Of a DNA stretch of 64,000 bases, positions 38,306-51,997 are shown one piece after another. The position numbers and the translations under genes are program-made. A model generated the notes under the pieces. The model was not told the origin of the DNA, made no database searches, and saw only the letters and a program-made list of their open reading frames with translations. Each line of letters starts with the position of its first letter. Position 1 is the first letter of the stretch. This stretch comes from a bacterium (lineage in GTDB: Bacteria; Bacteroidota; Rhodothermia; Balneolales; M1805), in assembly GCA_006226965.1 (NCBI GenBank), contig SBGQ01000043.1, positions 1-64,000 of the forward strand. Direction: 5' to 3'.

Positions 38306-38740
38306 ATGATTGCTTCTAAAACATGTGAATTAGCTATTCGGGCACTCATTCTTATCGCTCAAGATAAGTCGGGCGAGCCTGTTCGAATTTCTTATTTACA
38401 TGAAGAATTAGAAGTTGGCTTTTCGTTTATGACTAAAATTTTACAACCTCTAACCCATTCCGGGGTTCTCGTTTCCTTAAAAGGGGCGAAAGGCGGTTTA
38501 GTATTAAACAAAAAGCCTGAGGAAATTAATCTCAAGCAAATTGTTGAGATTATGGACGGGGATACTCTTTTCACCAAATGCGCTTTAGGCTTACCCAAAT
38601 GCGGGCATCCTGAAACGTGCGCATTTCATGAAAGCTGGACACCTGTAAGAGAACTTCTCACACAAACTTTTCAACAAACGACACTTGCTCAATTATCTAA
38701 AACAGGAAGCGAATCCCTTTTAAACAAATTAGTAGGCTGA
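38306..38740 (+). CDS. Rrf2-family transcriptional regulator (NsrR/IscR-like, Fe-S cysteines)
   Basis: CELAIRALILIAQ..., three Cys: FTKCALGLPKCGHPETCAF. Confidence 0.92.
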   Translation: MIASKTCELAIRALILIAQDKSGEPVRISYLHEELEVGFSFMTKILQPLTHSGVLVSLKGAKGGLVLNKKPEEINLKQIVEIMDGDTLFTKCALGLPKCGHPETCAFHESWTPVRELLTQTFQQTTLAQLSKTGSESLLNKLVG

Positions 38741-39253: not shown

Positions 39254-39340
39254 CGGGTAAAAAAACATCACACAATAACACATCAATTGCTTCTTATTGA
39301 ATCTAATACTCAATGTTGCAATTTACTTATGGAGATCACT

Positions 39341-41284
39341 ATGAAAAAAAAATTATGGCTTTCGGCTATCGTTGCTGCAGTGGTTTTAGCATCATGTGCT
39401 AAAAAAGCTGATTTAGGCGGCCATCAAGAAGCTGCTCAAAAAGTGTATGTTGCACCGGGCGAGCATGACGAATTTTATGGTTTTATGTCAGGCGGTTTTA
39501 ACGGGCAATTAGGAATTTATGGACTACCCTCAGGTAGACATTTGTACACTGTTCCTATTTTTTCACAAGCGCCTGTAAACGGTTATGGCTATTCTGAAGA
39601 AACAAAAGATATGCTTAAAACCTCTTATGGATTTATTCCTTGGGGAGATGCTCACCATCCGGAATTGTCTCAAACTGATGGCGTACCTGACGGTAGATGG
39701 CTGTTTATTAATGAAAACAACACCCCACGAATTGCTCGTGTAGATTTAAAAACATTCAGAACTGATGAAATTATTGAGATTCCAAACTCTGCGGGAAATC
39801 ACGCCTCATCATTCGTGACCATGAATACCGAATATGTTTCAGCGGCAACTCGTTTTTCTGTTCCTGTTGATGGTGGCAATAAAGATGTAGCTATTGATTC
39901 CTATAAAGAGAACTTTGGCGGAACCATCACTTTTGTAAAAGTAAGCCAAGAGGGCCATATGAATATTGAATTTCAATTATTGGTTCCCGGCTTTAATTAC
40001 GATTTATCACATGCCGGAAAAGGAATTTCTGACGGATGGGCATTTTTCACGACTTACAATACAGAACAAGCACACACTTTATTAGAAATTAATGCATCGC
40101 AAGCGGACAAAGATTTCATTGCAGCTATAAATTGGAAAAAAGCTGTTGAGTATGTTAAGTCCGGTAAAGGAAAAAAAATGTCAGGCTTGCATACTGTAAA
40201 TCATTTTGACCACAAAAAAGGAACTGCTGTTTCAGAATTACGGAAAGAAGTTATTACGCTAAACCCTAAAGATAATCCCGGAATTATCTATTTCTTACCG
40301 ACTCCAAAATCTCCGCATGGTGTTGATGTTGACCCAAGTGGACGTTTTATTGTTGGCGGCGGAAAATTAGCAACCGTATTACCTGTTCACTCATTCGAAA
40401 AAATGATTAAAGCCATTGAAGACAAAGCATTTGAAGGTGAAGCCGGCGGTATTCCTATTCTAAAATACGACGCGGTAATTCATGCTGAAGTAGAAAACCC
40501 GGGCCTTGGGCCACTTCATACCGAATTTGACGGAAAAGGCTTTGCTTATACAACTGCATTTTTAAGCTCAGAAGTTGTTAAATGGTCGTTGGAAACCTTT
40601 GAAGTTGTTGACCGCATTGACACCTACTATTCACCCGGTCACTTAATGATTCCCGGCGGTGATTCTCGCAAACCTTGGGGTAAATACTTAGTTGTACTAA
40701 ACAAAATCACCAAAGACAGATATCTCCCAACCGGCCCGGAACTATTCCATTCTGCTCAACTTATTGATATCTCCGGCGATAAAATGAAACTTTTGCTCGA
40801 TTTCCCGACGGAAGGTGAGCCACATTATGCACAAGGTATCGCAGCTGAAATCATAAAAAATAACCAAGTAAGATTTTTTCCTTTAGCTGATAATGGCCAT
40901 GAATGGGCGGCAAAATCTGAAAAAGAAACCGAAGTAATTCGCAAAGGAAATGTTGTACATGTTAAAATGACATCAATAAGAAGCCATTTTATGCCTGATA
41001 ACATCGAAGGTATTAAAGTGGGTGATGAAGTGTATTTCCACGTAACGAATTTGGAACAGGATTGGGATCTACCTCACGGTTTTTCCATTCTGGGAAATAA
41101 CAATGCAGAACTTCTGATTATGCCGGGCGAAACACTCACGATAAAATGGACCCCGACTCGTGAAGGTATCTTCCCATTCTACTGTACTGATTTCTGTAGC
41201 GCATTACATCAGGAAATGCAAGGTTATATACGTGTATCAGCTAAAAACAGTAATACACCAATAAAATTCAATTCCCCGAAATAA
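39341..41284 (+). CDS. nosZ: nitrous oxide reductase, Sec-type (clade II-like), predicted lipoprotein
   Basis: MKKKLWLSAIVAAVVLASCAKK lipobox rather than Tat RR; DEFYGFMSGGFNGQLGIYGLPSGR; CuA motif FPFYCTDFCSALHQEMQGYIRV; HGVDVDPSGRFI. Confidence 0.97.
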   Translation: MKKKLWLSAIVAAVVLASCAKKADLGGHQEAAQKVYVAPGEHDEFYGFMSGGFNGQLGIYGLPSGRHLYTVPIFSQAPVNGYGYSEETKDMLKTSYGFIPWGDAHHPELSQTDGVPDGRWLFINENNTPRIARVDLKTFRTDEIIEIPNSAGNHASSFVTMNTEYVSAATRFSVPVDGGNKDVAIDSYKENFGGTITFVKVSQEGHMNIEFQLLVPGFNYDLSHAGKGISDGWAFFTTYNTEQAHTLLEINASQADKDFIAAINWKKAVEYVKSGKGKKMSGLHTVNHFDHKKGTAVSELRKEVITLNPKDNPGIIYFLPTPKSPHGVDVDPSGRFIVGGGKLATVLPVHSFEKMIKAIEDKAFEGEAGGIPILKYDAVIHAEVENPGLGPLHTEFDGKGFAYTTAFLSSEVVKWSLETFEVVDRIDTYYSPGHLMIPGGDSRKPWGKYLVVLNKITKDRYLPTGPELFHSAQLIDISGDKMKLLLDFPTEGEPHYAQGIAAEIIKNNQVRFFPLADNGHEWAAKSEKETEVIRKGNVVHVKMTSIRSHFMPDNIEGIKVGDEVYFHVTNLEQDWDLPHGFSILGNNNAELLIMPGETLTIKWTPTREGIFPFYCTDFCSALHQEMQGYIRVSAKNSNTPIKFNSPK

Positions 41285-41298
41285 TTCGAGATTACGAT

Positions 41299-41329
41299 CC
41301 CTGAGTACAAGTTTAGGCTTTACTCAGGG
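41299..41329. terminator. hairpin downstream of nosZ (weak U-tract)
   Basis: CCCTGAGTA...TACTCAGGG. Confidence 0.5.
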
Positions 41330-44406: not shown

Positions 44407-45188
44407 TGAAAAAGACCTTATTCCTTTTCCAATTTAAAAATCAATTAAGAAGTAAATGGGTTTACATTGTTCTCTTAGCCATTTGTTCACTTTCTGATTT
44501 AATGCTCCGATTTAGCGGCGATGGTGCAAAAAGCATACTCAGCCTAATTAATTTGTCATTGTTTTTTATTCCTGTAATTGTTGCTATACAAACCGCAATG
44601 TTTATTTATGGTAATCGTGAATACATGGAGTTGGTGTTAACACAACCTGTAAAACGCGGGGTTTTAATAGTTCAACTGTGGCTGGCGTTTTGGATTCCAG
44701 TCGCTCTGGCCATTTTTTTAGGCATGTTATTGCCATTTATTTATTTACAAGAAGGTTGGCCGTATGTTGATGCCGTAATTCAACTTTCTTTTATTACAAA
44801 CATTTTAGCCGGAATCTTTTCATTATTAGCCGTATTGATTTCTCTTTCTCATGATGACAAAGCCAAAGGACTTGGCGTTTTACTTGGATATTGGTTGTTT
44901 TTAAGCATTGTTTATGATGGTTTGATGCTGTTTACCATTCAAGCATTGTCAGATTTTTCTTTACGAGAAATCAGCTTACTAGCTGTTTCACTAAATCCGG
45001 TTGACCTCGCCCGAATATTATTGCTTATGCTCAATAATGGTGCGGCTTTATTAGGTGTAACAGGAGCGTTATTCGAGCGATTCGCCGGCACTATTGTGGG
45101 AATAATCTCGATAAGTTCACTACTTCTTATCTGGTTTCTCATTCCCGGGTGGCTCTCCTACAAAAAGTTTTTATCCAAAGACTTTTAA
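44406..45188 (+). CDS. nosY: NosY ABC permease
   Basis: Six-TM ABC-2-type permease directly after nosF. Confidence 0.9.
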   Translation: MKKTLFLFQFKNQLRSKWVYIVLLAICSLSDLMLRFSGDGAKSILSLINLSLFFIPVIVAIQTAMFIYGNREYMELVLTQPVKRGVLIVQLWLAFWIPVALAIFLGMLLPFIYLQEGWPYVDAVIQLSFITNILAGIFSLLAVLISLSHDDKAKGLGVLLGYWLFLSIVYDGLMLFTIQALSDFSLREISLLAVSLNPVDLARILLLMLNNGAALLGVTGALFERFAGTIVGIISISSLLLIWFLIPGWLSYKKFLSKDF

Positions 45189-45256
45189 TTAAGACAATAT
45201 TGTCTTTTTGCAAAACAAACAAGTACATTCAATTCGAAATATCATTGAAAACAAAT

Positions 45257-45565
45257 ATGGATACCAAACAAACAATCTTCATTTCAGAACTTCCTCATAG
45301 CGAACGTCACCTTGCCGTTTTTAATGCATTTGATTCACTTGCACTTCAGGATTCATTCGAAATCGTTGTGGACCACGAACCAAGAGGTTTAATTCGTCAA
45401 TTTCAGCAATTCCGTGGCGGACAATCAGCATGGAAATTAATAAAACAAGAAAACGGATTTATTTGGTTTCAGATATCGCGCATTCTTGAAGCACCGGAAA
45501 ATCAACCTGAACTCGCGATTGAACATCATGGATGCGGTTGTGGAAATCATCACCATCATCACTAA
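45257..45565 (+). CDS. DUF2249-domain protein with Cys/His-rich C-terminal tail
   Basis: Start MDTKQTIFISELPHSERHLAVFNAFDSLALQDSFEIVVDHEPRGLIRQFQQF; C-terminus EHHGCGCGNHHHHH. Confidence 0.82.
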   Translation: MDTKQTIFISELPHSERHLAVFNAFDSLALQDSFEIVVDHEPRGLIRQFQQFRGGQSAWKLIKQENGFIWFQISRILEAPENQPELAIEHHGCGCGNHHHHH

Positions 45566-46720: not shown

Positions 46721-47851
46721 ATGCAAAAGCGGTATTCATTGAACACGCATGTACGAGTCCCGGGTTTATTCTATCTCGTAATTACTCTTCTATCAGGAAT
46801 AGGATTACGCATACAATGGCTCTTCCCTGATTGGAGTGTATTCTCACAAAAGTTTGCAATACATGCCCATTCTCACTTGGCTCTTTTAGGCTGGCTTTTC
46901 CCGATTTTGTTGTACTCATTAGTGAAACGGGATACACAACTCACTTCTTTCTTACGCTGGAACATCTACATATTGCATGGATTGATTATAGCCATGTTTC
47001 CGGCTTTTTTACTTCAAGGATATGCCTTTTACTCCATCTTGTTTTCATCACTTTATCTGATTGTTTCTTATTCCATTTTATGGCAACTCAGGAATGAATT
47101 GGAGTTGGGAAAGAATCCGGTAAAAACATGGGCTGTTTTATTTTACGTTGCATCAACAATTGGTCCTTGGCTTTTAGGCGGATCAACTGTATTTGGCCAA
47201 GTTTGGATGAACGCCTGGATTGCATGGTTTCTGCATTTGCAATTTAATGGTTGGGTAACTTTTGGTTTATTGGCATTATTTTTCAGCCGAATTCCTTCGC
47301 CTAAATGGTTAATACACGTTTTCGCTACGGGCACACTCTTTATTTCATTTAGTTTGATGTTACCGCAAAACGACTTTCAACTGCTTAAAATAAGTGCTGT
47401 ATTTGCGGGCATCTTACTCACCTTGAGTTCCATATGGTTAGTAACAATCGTTGTTAAACAACACCAGAGAACTACTATAACCGGATTTATTATTCAACTT
47501 CTACTCTTAAAATCGTTCTTATTGGGGTTTTCCGGACTAGAAATCATGCAAAATTACATTCACCATATTCCGCAAGCCCGAGTTGCATTTACTCATACCA
47601 GCTTATTAGCCATAGCTTCAACATTTTTGCTTTTCTATAATGGTTTATCCAAAAAATTAACCCTGCTTTTTAGCACGGCATCGTGGCTTATGGTTGCTTT
47701 ACTTTGGATGGAACTCTTTGGCTTGTATTACAAAACCGGAATTCCATTTTCAATACAAGTACCTTATATAATTTTAGGAGTCGTGCTTTTGGGAACAATT
47801 TTACCGCTAATTCTAAAATCCGTAACCAAAGTAACACAAAACCCTTCTTAA
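46721..47851 (+). CDS. polytopic membrane protein related to haem-copper oxidase subunit I / NnrS-like proteins
   Basis: About 12 TM; FAIHAHSHLALLGWLFPILLYSL, WFLHLQFNGWVTFGLLALFF, YIHHIPQARVAFTHTSLLAI histidines. Confidence 0.6.
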   Translation: MQKRYSLNTHVRVPGLFYLVITLLSGIGLRIQWLFPDWSVFSQKFAIHAHSHLALLGWLFPILLYSLVKRDTQLTSFLRWNIYILHGLIIAMFPAFLLQGYAFYSILFSSLYLIVSYSILWQLRNELELGKNPVKTWAVLFYVASTIGPWLLGGSTVFGQVWMNAWIAWFLHLQFNGWVTFGLLALFFSRIPSPKWLIHVFATGTLFISFSLMLPQNDFQLLKISAVFAGILLTLSSIWLVTIVVKQHQRTTITGFIIQLLLLKSFLLGFSGLEIMQNYIHHIPQARVAFTHTSLLAIASTFLLFYNGLSKKLTLLFSTASWLMVALLWMELFGLYYKTGIPFSIQVPYIILGVVLLGTILPLILKSVTKVTQNPS

Positions 47852-47870: not shown

Positions 47871-48299
47871 TTGAAAACACCTATCCACATAAAACTCTTT
47901 TCTTCTTTCATGAGTGTGTTACTCATGTGGAATTTATTTGGCTGGTGGTTATATCCCGTAGTTCACGGCATTGTTGATAAACATCTGAACTCCGGTATTG
48001 AATGTTGTAACGGAGCAGAATTATGTTGTTGTAAAGCTGCCGGAGCCGACGCCTGTTACTGCTTACCGGGGCAAGACCATGGTGACAATAACGTAATGGT
48101 CTGCGGTATTGATGCACCTGATGCACATCCTAACGCACAAGAGCAAGGCGTTCTCGTTTTCTTTGAAATGAGAGCAACAGTTACTCAACTATCCTTTCTA
48201 ATTCCGGGAAAACATCTCCCGAATTTAAGCCCTTCGTTTTGGGAACTACCCTTATCCGGCTTTCTTAACGAGCAATTTCGCCCTCCCAAATTTTCATAA
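47871..48299 (+). CDS. small membrane-anchored Cys-rich hypothetical protein
   Basis: N-terminal TM then IECCNGAELCCCKAAGADACYCLPGQDHGDNNVMVCG; TTG start in track. Confidence 0.6.
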   Translation: MKTPIHIKLFSSFMSVLLMWNLFGWWLYPVVHGIVDKHLNSGIECCNGAELCCCKAAGADACYCLPGQDHGDNNVMVCGIDAPDAHPNAQEQGVLVFFEMRATVTQLSFLIPGKHLPNLSPSFWELPLSGFLNEQFRPPKFS

Positions 48300-48396
48300 A
48301 TAAACACTCCTGCTTTTGCAGTATTTCCTCAACTGAAATGTTTTTCAGCTTGTAGGATTATGTCAAATTTTTATTAAAAAAACTCTTTTATTATTT

Positions 48397-49194
48397 ATGA
48401 AAATCAATTTCTTAAAGGCAATTTCTATTGCACTTATCTCTATTGCTGTAATCTCTTGTAAAGATTCTACAACAACAGACAATTCGCTCGAACTTCTCTC
48501 TATTACTTCTGCTGAATCGGGCGATTACATCTTGCATCTTTCCGGCTTAAAACCACTCGAAACCGGCTACAATCGTTTGTTTTGGGATGTTTCTAAAGCT
48601 GGAACTACTGTCGAAATCGATTCAATTCTTGTAAATCCGATAATGGATATGACTACAATGACTCACTCTTGCCCCAAAGAAACGCCGTTTTCATCACAAG
48701 ATGCAGATGGTAAGTTTGAAGGCTACATGGTTTTTATCATGCCTAGCGGCGATATGGGCTCGTGGGCTATTACTGCTACCGCATACTTATCAAACGGAGA
48801 ATCGTTTACAGCCGCGGTTGATATAAGTGTGGCTAACTCTTGGAAATTGCAAAGCTTCACCTATAATGAAGTTAAATATTTTGTTTCCTGGGCTAGCCCT
48901 GATGAACCGTTTGTGGGAAAAAACACCGTTCAACTTATGCTCCACAAAAAGGCAACGATGATGAGTTTCCCTTCAACCGATGACCTTAGCTTATCAATTT
49001 ATCCGTACATGGATATGGGTTCAGGCGAGGGCCATTCCGCACCTTATGAACAAGTTGAGCGAATGGGAACGGGGCATTATAAAGGCTCCATCAGTTATAG
49101 TATGAGCGGCGACTGGCAAATTACAGTTTCTGCTAATTCCGGAAGTGAAACCGTTGCCGAAACGGTATTCAACATGAATGTTATCAGTAAATAA
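48397..49194 (+). CDS. lipoprotein with tandem Met/His-rich Ig-like (YtkA/FixH-like) domains
   Basis: Lipobox AVISC; NPIMDMTTMTHSCPKE...MPSGDMGSWAITATAY and YPYMDMGSGEGHSAPYE...YSMSGDWQITVSA. Confidence 0.65.
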   Translation: MKINFLKAISIALISIAVISCKDSTTTDNSLELLSITSAESGDYILHLSGLKPLETGYNRLFWDVSKAGTTVEIDSILVNPIMDMTTMTHSCPKETPFSSQDADGKFEGYMVFIMPSGDMGSWAITATAYLSNGESFTAAVDISVANSWKLQSFTYNEVKYFVSWASPDEPFVGKNTVQLMLHKKATMMSFPSTDDLSLSIYPYMDMGSGEGHSAPYEQVERMGTGHYKGSISYSMSGDWQITVSANSGSETVAETVFNMNVISK

Positions 49195-49205
49195 ATAAAT
49201 CGCGT

Positions 49206-49291
49206 GGGCTCAGTGGGTCAAAGCTGGAAGTTACTGGCGGAATAGCAACTCTAATTCCCGCGAAGACTCCCAACGACCCATTGAAGCTCCC
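49206..49291 (+). ncRNA. candidate structured leader RNA / riboswitch-like element upstream of the TonB receptor
   Basis: Long imperfect stem GGGCTCAGTGGGTC (49206-49219) / GACCCATTGAAGCTCCC (49275-49291), internal GCGGAAT/ATTCCCGC stem, followed by TTTTAAT; ATG at 49309. Confidence 0.45.
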
Positions 49292-49308
49292 TTTTAATAC
49301 GTATAGCT

Positions 49309-51480
49309 ATGTATATACTTTTTATCGTTTTACTGATTATATCGCCCAATAGGCTTGTTTTGGTGGATGCACAGAACAAAGAACCTATCGCAGACGCATA
49401 TGGAATAACTTCATCCGGCAAGCTACTCATAAGTAATTCTGACGGTGTAATCGAGGTAAACAAAGAAATCCAACATCTCCAGATAAGCCACATAAACTAT
49501 CACACACTGCATATACTTGCTCCTTTTCCTGATACTGTTTTCATGCAAGCTCAAACTTATACAGGAAAAGATATTCTGGTAATCGGGAAAAAACAGGAAA
49601 ACGCTCAGATACATCAATATCAAGATTTCACAATAAACCAACCTGTTGAGCGACAATTGAGACAAATTGAAGGCTTGCAACTGGTTCAACGCGGGGCTTT
49701 TGCTTGGGAACCAATGGTTAGAGGCTTAAGTGACCAACGTTTAAGTGTTTCGATTGATGGGATGCGCGTTTATGCTGCTTGTACCGATAAAATGGACCCT
49801 CCAACCGCTTATATTGAAACAGGAAATCTTGAACAGATTACGATTCAAAAGGAAAGCAACTCTGGTTTAGAATCAGGAAACGGATTTGCAGGATTGCATT
49901 TAAAATTGCAAGAAGCACGATTTCAACATCAGTCCCTTCAACTCAGCTCAGGTTTTCGAGCACCCGACTCCTATCGCTTCTTTAGTATGACCGGAAACTC
50001 AGGTTGGCAAACGCAAGCGATTCGTTATTCAGTTTCTTTCAAACAAGCTGATGATTTTTCGGCATCCGATAATCAAGTCATAAAGAATTCGGGATTCAGC
50101 AAATTGAACGCCTCAATAAATCATCGTTGGCTGGATAAATCATTCACTGTCTCAAACACATTTATTTATGATGATGCCTGGGAAATGGGTTTTCCCGTTC
50201 TTTTAATGGATGCAACTCGCGCAAAAGCACTTATGCTACGGCAAGAGTGGCAATTCTTACGTCCCAATACATTATGGGCTAATCATTCTTTAATGGGATA
50301 TTACAATTCCGTTCGTCATAAAATGGATGATTACAGTCGGGATGTGGCCAATCGTGACGTAATGAGAAACATGTACATGCCCATGGAAGGAACAACTGAA
50401 ACCTTCGGTTTAACATGGAAAGCACATTCTTTATTCCATTCAAAACTCAATCTTAATATGGAATTGATTCAATCTACCGCAAACGGATTCATGCTTATGG
50501 AGCCCTTAGATACAACTATATCACCCATGTATTTAGACAATTTGTCTGATGTAGTTACACAAGAAGCAAAGTTCGGGTTTAATTATGAGTTTTCTCTGCT
50601 TAACGGTTGGTTAGCAACACCGAATGTGTCTTTATTGGTAAACCATATTTTCACAGACGATGAACGGTATGCGCAATATTTTGAAGAACTGTATCAAAAG
50701 AACACCAACACCAATGTGCGCTTGGCTTTTCAGGCACAAATTACACTTGCTAAACAGGTTGGCTCTTTCGGATATGTGAGCTTCAACACGTCAGTTAACG
50801 AGCGTAATCCAAACCACAATGAACGTTACTCACATTACATCTATAACTATGTTGACGGCTTCTTTTACGAAGGAAATCCTTGGCTTAAAAATGAGTTCAG
50901 CGTTGCTCAGGAAGTCTCATGGCAGCTCAATAAAGACTCTTATAGTTTGAATTTAAGTGGATTTTATCGCTCATTTAATAACTATATATCCGGCGTTTTT
51001 GACGCCAATCTAAGCTCAGAATATTATTCGTTTATGAGATATTCGAATGTTGGCAAAGCAACTCTTTTAGGATTTGAATTACGGGTACTTTCAAATCTAA
51101 CCCATTCCATTTCAATGGATAACCGTATTAGTTATACTAAAGGTAGATTAATCGGCTTAAACGATAACCTTCCGTATATAGCACCGCTCAGTGGTTACTC
51201 GAAAATAAATTGGAATACTTTTATAGGAAAGTTTACGCCCGTAATCGAATGGTCTGCTGCGCAAAACAATATTGCTGACAAAACCAGTATTGAAGACACC
51301 TCAAACGAATGGATGTTAGTTCACGTTTCTTGGGAACAATCATTTTATAATGATAATCTCCTAATCAACGCAGAAATTCAAAACGTTTTCGATACGTTTG
51401 TTGTACGCCATGTTAGTATGGGTAATCTACCTGAACATGGGCGCAGTTTCGGTATAAGTATTAAATACTTATTAAATTAA
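49309..51480 (+). CDS. TonB-dependent outer-membrane receptor, OprC/NosA-like (copper)
   Basis: Plug RQIEGLQLVQRGAFAWEPMVRGLSDQRLSVSIDGMRVYAACTDKMDPPTAYIE; CxxxM (49780-49794) and HKM (50317-50325); C-terminal barrel FGISIKYLLN. Confidence 0.88.
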   Translation: MYILFIVLLIISPNRLVLVDAQNKEPIADAYGITSSGKLLISNSDGVIEVNKEIQHLQISHINYHTLHILAPFPDTVFMQAQTYTGKDILVIGKKQENAQIHQYQDFTINQPVERQLRQIEGLQLVQRGAFAWEPMVRGLSDQRLSVSIDGMRVYAACTDKMDPPTAYIETGNLEQITIQKESNSGLESGNGFAGLHLKLQEARFQHQSLQLSSGFRAPDSYRFFSMTGNSGWQTQAIRYSVSFKQADDFSASDNQVIKNSGFSKLNASINHRWLDKSFTVSNTFIYDDAWEMGFPVLLMDATRAKALMLRQEWQFLRPNTLWANHSLMGYYNSVRHKMDDYSRDVANRDVMRNMYMPMEGTTETFGLTWKAHSLFHSKLNLNMELIQSTANGFMLMEPLDTTISPMYLDNLSDVVTQEAKFGFNYEFSLLNGWLATPNVSLLVNHIFTDDERYAQYFEELYQKNTNTNVRLAFQAQITLAKQVGSFGYVSFNTSVNERNPNHNERYSHYIYNYVDGFFYEGNPWLKNEFSVAQEVSWQLNKDSYSLNLSGFYRSFNNYISGVFDANLSSEYYSFMRYSNVGKATLLGFELRVLSNLTHSISMDNRISYTKGRLIGLNDNLPYIAPLSGYSKINWNTFIGKFTPVIEWSAAQNNIADKTSIEDTSNEWMLVHVSWEQSFYNDNLLINAEIQNVFDTFVVRHVSMGNLPEHGRSFGISIKYLLN

Positions 51481-51583: not shown

Positions 51584-51997
51584 ATGATCACTACCAAATC
51601 TTGCCAATTTGCCATTAGAGCGCTCATCTATTTAGCGTTAAATAGCGATGGCAAACCTATCCAAATCTCGCGATTACATAAAGATTTAAATGTCGGTGCA
51701 GCTTATCTGACGAAAATATTACAACCGCTTACTCAACATGAAATCTTGGTTTCCTATAAAGGAACAAATGGCGGAGTTCAATTAAATCGCCCTGCAGATA
51801 AAATTTCTCTTTATGAAATTGTACACATTATAGACGGCGACGCTTTATTTGATGAATGTGCACTAGGAATACCAACTTGCAGTATCGAAACACCTTGTGC
51901 GTTTCATTTTAAATGGGCTGATATTCGTGATGAAATAAAATTCGCATTTCACGACACAACCATTGCAGATTTAGCTGCATCCGGCGGGCAAGTATAA
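51584..51997 (+). CDS. Rrf2-family transcriptional regulator, paralogue of 38306..38740
   Basis: CQFAIRALIYLALNSDGKPIQISRLHKDLNVGAAYLTKILQPLTQHEILVSYKGTNGGV; FDECALGIPTCSIETPCAF. Confidence 0.92.
   Translation: MITTKSCQFAIRALIYLALNSDGKPIQISRLHKDLNVGAAYLTKILQPLTQHEILVSYKGTNGGVQLNRPADKISLYEIVHIIDGDALFDECALGIPTCSIETPCAFHFKWADIRDEIKFAFHDTTIADLAASGGQV

Follow-up and report, generated by a model that had tools for sequence, protein, structure and literature searches.

A putative copper-sensing leader peptide and an intercistronic hairpin in a lipoprotein-receptor operon at a nos locus of the Balneolales

Described copper leaders and the locus studied here

In Bordetella pertussis, the DUF2946 protein CruR is encoded by a leader ORF (145 aa) ahead of the gene for a TonB copper receptor (PMC9426467, PMC12992588), and the CXXC and RAPP motifs of Bordetella CruR have 45 residues between them, a spacing fixed within one or two (PMC9426467). 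Ribosomes translating CruR come to a halt at RAPP in vitro (PMC12992588), and copper, acting by way of Rho, shuts off expression of the receptor (PMC9426467). In Rhodobacter capsulatus, CutF is likewise a short exported ORF ahead of copper genes, with a Cys metal site and a PP near its C-terminus; the stem-loop between this ORF and the next gene covers that gene's initiation region, and CutF together with copper opens it, freeing the hidden ribosome site (PMC9973294). CutF-like proteins are known from the Bacteroidota, with TonB-like proteins among their frequent neighbors (PMC9973294), and a survey of arrest peptides reported no copper-related ones from the Bacteroidota among those with RAPP or RGPP, the motifs it searched, which do not include RPP (PMC12992588). 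A different kind of RNA element, the stable protective hairpin without a U-tract, is found within E. coli operons after the upstream gene (PMC5927463).

We analyzed by computation a 64,000-nt stretch of contig SBGQ01000043.1 (assembly GCA_006226965.1, order Balneolales), called the window below, in which a sequence-only reading had singled out a long hairpin between a lipoprotein gene and a TonB-dependent receptor gene (Table 1). This junction stands at the end of a cluster that its nosZ gene marks as a nos (N2O reductase) locus and that carries, upstream, genes for an Rrf2 regulator, a cytochrome c, the Sec-dependent NosZ, a NosL-like protein, NosD, an ABC ATPase and a permease (the names NosL, NosF and NosY were given by position and reading where the protein has no family match). 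Two Rrf2-family regulator genes (38306-38740 and 51584-51997) flank the nos and copper cluster as a whole, and within the nos cluster 45149-45565 encodes a DUF2249 protein with a His-rich C-terminus (CGCGNHHHHH).

The receptor is nearest, though distantly, to the OprC/NosA copper receptors, a family linked to N2O reductase (6fok; PMC8610252): its best family match is TIGR01778 (TonB-copper; E = 1e-28), but the score of 100.5 bits lies under the curated cut-off of 472.45, and its best solved relatives are OprC structures (6fok/6z8q; E = 2e-11). The lipoprotein signal of the YtkA-like protein was judged by eye.

Table 1. Positions of the genes, motifs and RNA elements discussed in the text
Feature	Coordinates	Strand	Basis or remark
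nosZ, Sec-dependent (clade II) nitrous oxide reductase	39287..41284	+	TIGR04246, 922 bits (cut-off 625)
Second intercistronic hairpin, without U-tract, directly after nosZ	41299..41329	+	Counterparts after nosZ in relatives
CruR/CutF-like leader ORF, 142 aa, TTG start	47871..48299	+	HMM and C-terminal motif
Cys cluster of the leader ORF, residues 45-78	48003..48104	+	60 residues from the last Cys to PP
Codons of RPP, the putative arrest site, four codons ahead of the stop if KFS is counted	48279..48287	+	Motif conservation
5' arm ATTTTCATAAATAA, last two codons and stop codon of the leader ORF	48290..48303	+	Folding, shuffles
3' arm TTATTTATGAAAAT, covering the ytkA start codon (48397)	48391..48404	+	Folding
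YtkA-like lipoprotein gene (ytkA), first behind the leader ORF	48397..49194	+	PF13115, E = 1.1e-10; syntenic in the order
Long imperfect intercistronic hairpin	49206..49289	+	Folding; CCTTTTAATAC directly 3'
TonB-dependent receptor, nearest copper receptor family (OprC/NosA type)	49309..51480	+	Pfam Plug and beta-barrel

The leader ORF and its stop-to-start helix

Directly ahead of ytkA, and 0.9 to 1.4 kb upstream of the hairpin, lies an ORF that is probably the copper-responsive leader of the receptor operon, as judged from its motifs and their conservation. It consists of an N-terminal hydrophobic segment (about residues 8-36, by eye), a Cys-rich cluster and a C-terminus reading FRPPKFS-stop. 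An ORF ending in [RHQKP]PP-x(2-3)-stop was found directly upstream of ytkA at 29 of the 31 loci examined and at 29 of 30 within the order, the two exceptions being G048, which is cut by a contig end, and G151, the only locus outside the order. The PP is invariant in all 29 ORFs, and the residue before it varies (RPP, HPP, QPP or PPP). A hidden Markov model built from 13 relatives matched the leader ORF alone among 2168 ORFs in about 700 kb of this genome (E = 2.9e-7), and of the 894 ORFs of at least 90 aa in the genome's sample it was again the only one with a [RHQKP]PPx(1-3) end. The distance from the last Cys to the PP is 58-61 residues in 14 genomes (60 here) and 63-66 in the other 15; within the group nearest this genome, the earlier Cys residues shift in position by some 30 residues.

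With respect to the published description of CutF-like proteins, to which we likened the ORF by rule, its 142 aa fall below the limit of 150 aa, its prolines (P138-P139 of 142) lie inside the last 15 residues, and ytkA follows 97 nt downstream with a 14-bp helix over its ATG. With CruR the ORF shares a constant spacing between a Cys motif and a C-terminal PP motif, the latter two or three residues before the stop codon. CruR differs in that the motif here is RPP instead of RAPP and the Cys-to-PP distance is about 60, and CruR acts through Rho-dependent termination whereas the leader ORF has a helix running from its stop codon to the next start codon. The profile DUF2946 (PF11162) matched none of the 13 members even at E values up to 10, nor anything else in this genome, and DUF2946 membership was therefore rejected; the combination of CXXC with a C-terminal RAPP is likewise missing, RPP standing in its place. 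In place of RAPP or RGPP, the leader ORFs have RPP, HPP, QPP or PPP, at which arrest is putative. Since CutF-like proteins with TonB neighbors have already been reported from the Bacteroidota, we file the leader within the known CutF/CruR kind. What is particular to it is the stop-to-start helix together with the lipoprotein-receptor target: in contrast to CutF, the 5' arm lies on the leader's own stop codon, and the genes behind it encode the YtkA lipoprotein and the receptor.

Folding of positions 48261-48440 paired the leader's stop region with the ytkA start over 14 bp, with only one G-C among pairs that are otherwise A-U or G-U, at p = 0.0025, the floor of the 400 shuffles used. An earlier version of the test, ending at the ytkA ATG, had given p = 0.9 here, and the region was then extended into ytkA; because this extension was prompted by the fold of this very genome, the rank of the junction among other gene pairs is the fairer evidence. 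By that measure, the leader-ytkA junction came first of 145 codirectional pairs in this genome, and in relatives such junctions made up the top 3, and 6 of the top 8, of 100 pairs. Among the orthologues the helix reached p < 0.05 in 21 of 29, with a different sequence each time (examples of arms are TTAGTTTTGTTTA/TAAACAAAACTAA, GGTCACTGAG/CTCAGTGACC and AGCTGAGTT/AACTCAGCT), and was not significant in the remaining 8 of 29. We concluded that the predicted stop-to-start helix covaries across the order.

The hydrophobic N-terminal segment and the Cys/His-rich middle would also suit a small exported copper-binding protein that is co-transcribed with ytkA and regulates nothing. We regard this as improbable: what the whole order keeps constant is a PP 2-3 residues ahead of the stop codon, the spacing between Cys and PP, and the stop-to-start helix, and nothing else; such features serve regulation and not metal storage.

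Two observations concern the setting of the leader ORF. A gene for a 376-aa membrane protein without a Pfam or NCBIfam match (46721-47851) ends 19 nt ahead of it, so in this genome the leader is perhaps not the first gene of its transcript. In G053 (L006/L046) and G081 (L043), the leader ORF, ytkA and the receptor gene are present and nosZ was not found at E = 1e-100; the module is thus not tied to N2O reduction.

The hairpin between the lipoprotein and receptor genes

The element to which the sequence-only reading had drawn attention is a real but fairly ordinary stem-loop between two genes. The long stem described there, enclosing an inner GCGGAAT hairpin, was recovered: GGGCTCAGTGGGTC pairs with GACCCATTGAAGCTC(CC) in the outer stem and GCGGAAT with ATTCCCGC in the inner hairpin, and the folded element is followed by CCTTTTAATACGTATAGCT and then, 19 nt beyond its end, by the receptor ATG. 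Positions 49190-49300 folded as one hairpin with a minimum free energy of -33.1 kcal/mol, compared with -23.4 +/- 3.4 kcal/mol for dinucleotide shuffles (z = -2.87; 2 of 200 shuffles equally stable). The hairpin ranked third among the local folds of 170 codirectional spacers sampled in this genome, and 8 of 1727 plus-strand windows of the same length were as stable or better. It occurs once in the 3.78-Mb assembly, and in 129 genomes of the order its DNA found short, chance-level matches only.

Seeking counterparts in other genomes, we folded the lipoprotein-to-receptor spacers of the order. Where the spacer was at least 40 nt long, a significant hairpin (z < -2.5) was present in 13 of 14 cases, this genome included, the sole exception being G026; in short spacers (0-23 nt) no hairpin was found, and because it is missing where the two genes are less than about 25 nt apart, the hairpin is not essential. 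A further hairpin, in the G044 spacer, was recognized by inspection. The rates at which other spacers of the same genomes passed z < -2.5 were 30% and 23% for codirectional, 62% and 64% for convergent and 4% and 0% for divergent pairs (backgrounds of about 700 kb of this genome, sampled in stretches, and 400 kb from six relatives, with mechanical gene calls). By our own arithmetic, independent spacers with a rate of 0.3 would give 13 of 14 about once in a million, a figure weakened by the relatedness of the genomes, which the shuffle p-values also ignore. The orthologous spacers align without any common sequence and their stems are unrelated, and for this reason no covariation model was built. 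Upstream of the orthologous receptors, where the sequence-only reading had proposed to look for conservation, neither conserved sequence nor an aptamer-like pattern was seen, only position-matched hairpins of unrelated sequence. As a side observation, the spacer in G105 (L044) is 335 nt long and holds several GC-rich inverted repeats, such as CCCCTCCTTGAAAAAGGAGGGG; it looks like an inserted repeat element.

As to function, we lean slightly toward a barrier or processing site at an mRNA 3' end, which would make the stretch of transcript with the leader ORF and ytkA more stable than the receptor stretch, thereby setting the ratio of the two. The hairpin and its counterparts resemble the U-less hairpins of the malE-malF type and of puf (PMC5927463) in being stable, placed shortly past the upstream stop codon, mostly free of a U-tract and conserved in position; unlike those, the one here is unusually long (84 nt) and carries U4. 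The U4 bears on the large terminator that had been proposed, of which only a weak one is left as a possibility. An intrinsic terminator, perhaps partial, that lowers receptor transcription would fit the position 11 nt past the ytkA stop, the GC-rich base of the stem and the TTTTAAT behind it, in a genome where gene-end hairpins are frequent, as the convergent spacers show. However, a T-run at the stem is absent from 9 of the 12 compact orthologous hairpins, while runs of at least four T accompany 34 of 42 compact codirectional hairpins in this genome and 17 of 25 in relatives, and the four U-poor compact hairpins among the relatives' spacers under 100 nt all lie at the ytkA-receptor junction (these background samples purposely include that locus). 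Typical terminators here are compact, with at least seven perfect pairs, an A-tract and a T-run, whereas the 84-nt imperfect stem lacks a perfect 7-bp GC-rich stem with a loop of 12 nt or less, is followed by U4 and then AAU, and was not listed by the consensus terminator scan. A terminator would moreover sever the receptor gene from its operon unless that gene has its own promoter. We therefore consider termination an unlikely main role; because the copy here ends in U4, it could still terminate weakly, and a partial termination in this genome in addition to the barrier or processing role is possible, if doubtful.

Its place just ahead of a regulated transporter gene and a fold better than that of shuffles had also suggested a metabolite or metal riboswitch, or an attenuator, in the leader of the receptor gene. 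We give this hardly any credence. An Rfam scan of the window and relatives returned no family for the hairpin, the cobalamin riboswitch included, in agreement with the earlier opinion that cobalamin did not fit, and both it and other riboswitches were rejected on that ground; the unrelated sequences of the orthologous hairpins rule out an aptamer; relatives have plain hairpins with variable loops, or none at all in spacers below about 25 nt; and the spacer holds no leader peptide. The same lack of shared sequence counts against an operator palindrome, which was rejected, and a single copy in this genome with no DNA relatives in the order led us to reject a repeat, REP or mobile-element origin. 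That the stem is a long inverted repeat with a GC content above its surroundings would suit such features of the DNA, as would the equally good fold of the antisense strand (-37.6 against -34.4), which means that energy alone cannot tell which strand matters; but the orthologous hairpins have their position and not their sequence in common, unlike an operator, and the sense strand folds better in 8 of 12 of them, which is not so in this genome. A role at the level of DNA is thus, in our estimation, very improbable.

A second hairpin without a U-tract directly follows nosZ. A compact perfect hairpin was found 3' of 28 of the 30 nosZ genes examined by a stem test; in this genome and in one relative the hairpin is present but does not pass that test. 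In 24 aligning sequences, 9 of the 10 stem pairs show pair-keeping changes on both sides, and the loop carries a GA in every one of the 24 aligned relatives; the loop of this genome differs. The U-tails of the relatives' hairpins (L137-L160) are mostly weak, and Rfam holds no family for this element.

A proposed copper control of the operon

We consider it likely that two elements together explain the locus, a nascent-peptide sensor encoded by the leader ORF, which would control the operon, and the intercistronic hairpin. The suggestion of a structured cis-regulatory leader for the receptor gene was right, it appears, about post-transcriptional control and misplaced the leader, which would be the ORF with its helix, two genes upstream, and not the flagged stem. 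From the ORF, its motifs with their spacing and the covarying helix, we infer that the ribosome arrests and that copper is the ligand, and likewise in which direction the control runs and how the receptor is affected.

Without copper, the ribosome would pause at the C-terminal RPP and cover the 5' arm around the stop codon; the ytkA start codon in the 3' arm would then be free, and ytkA and the receptor would be made. The Cys cluster, trailing the arrest site by about 60 residues and hence probably outside the ribosome, would bind copper and release the pause, whereupon termination would be completed and the helix would close over the ytkA start. Closure would lower the translation, and possibly through Rho the transcription, of ytkA and the receptor gene. 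We chose this direction in view of the operon's probable role in copper import. With copper, CutF raises its target; for an import receptor one expects the opposite, as with CruR. The hairpin after ytkA would then set the amount of receptor per lipoprotein.

More speculatively, and with little expectation that it will hold, one can imagine a two-stage RNA circuit at the copper/N2O loci of the order, in which the sensor peptide and its helix are joined by the U-less hairpins after ytkA and nosZ, on which one shared factor, by binding or cleavage, would act to tune receptor and reductase together.

Copper supply limits N2O reductase, which is, to our knowledge, the only known biological sink of the greenhouse gas N2O. 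A literature search found no copper-sensing nascent peptide of this kind for the order. With its constant Cys-to-PP spacing and a helix that covaries, the leader offers a sharp and cheap test of the CruR/CutF type of sensor mechanism, and the hairpin after ytkA adds an example of an intercistronic element conserved in position and free of conserved sequence. If the proposal is true, the peptide in control of a receptor that probably feeds N2O reductase would sense copper before leaving the ribosome.
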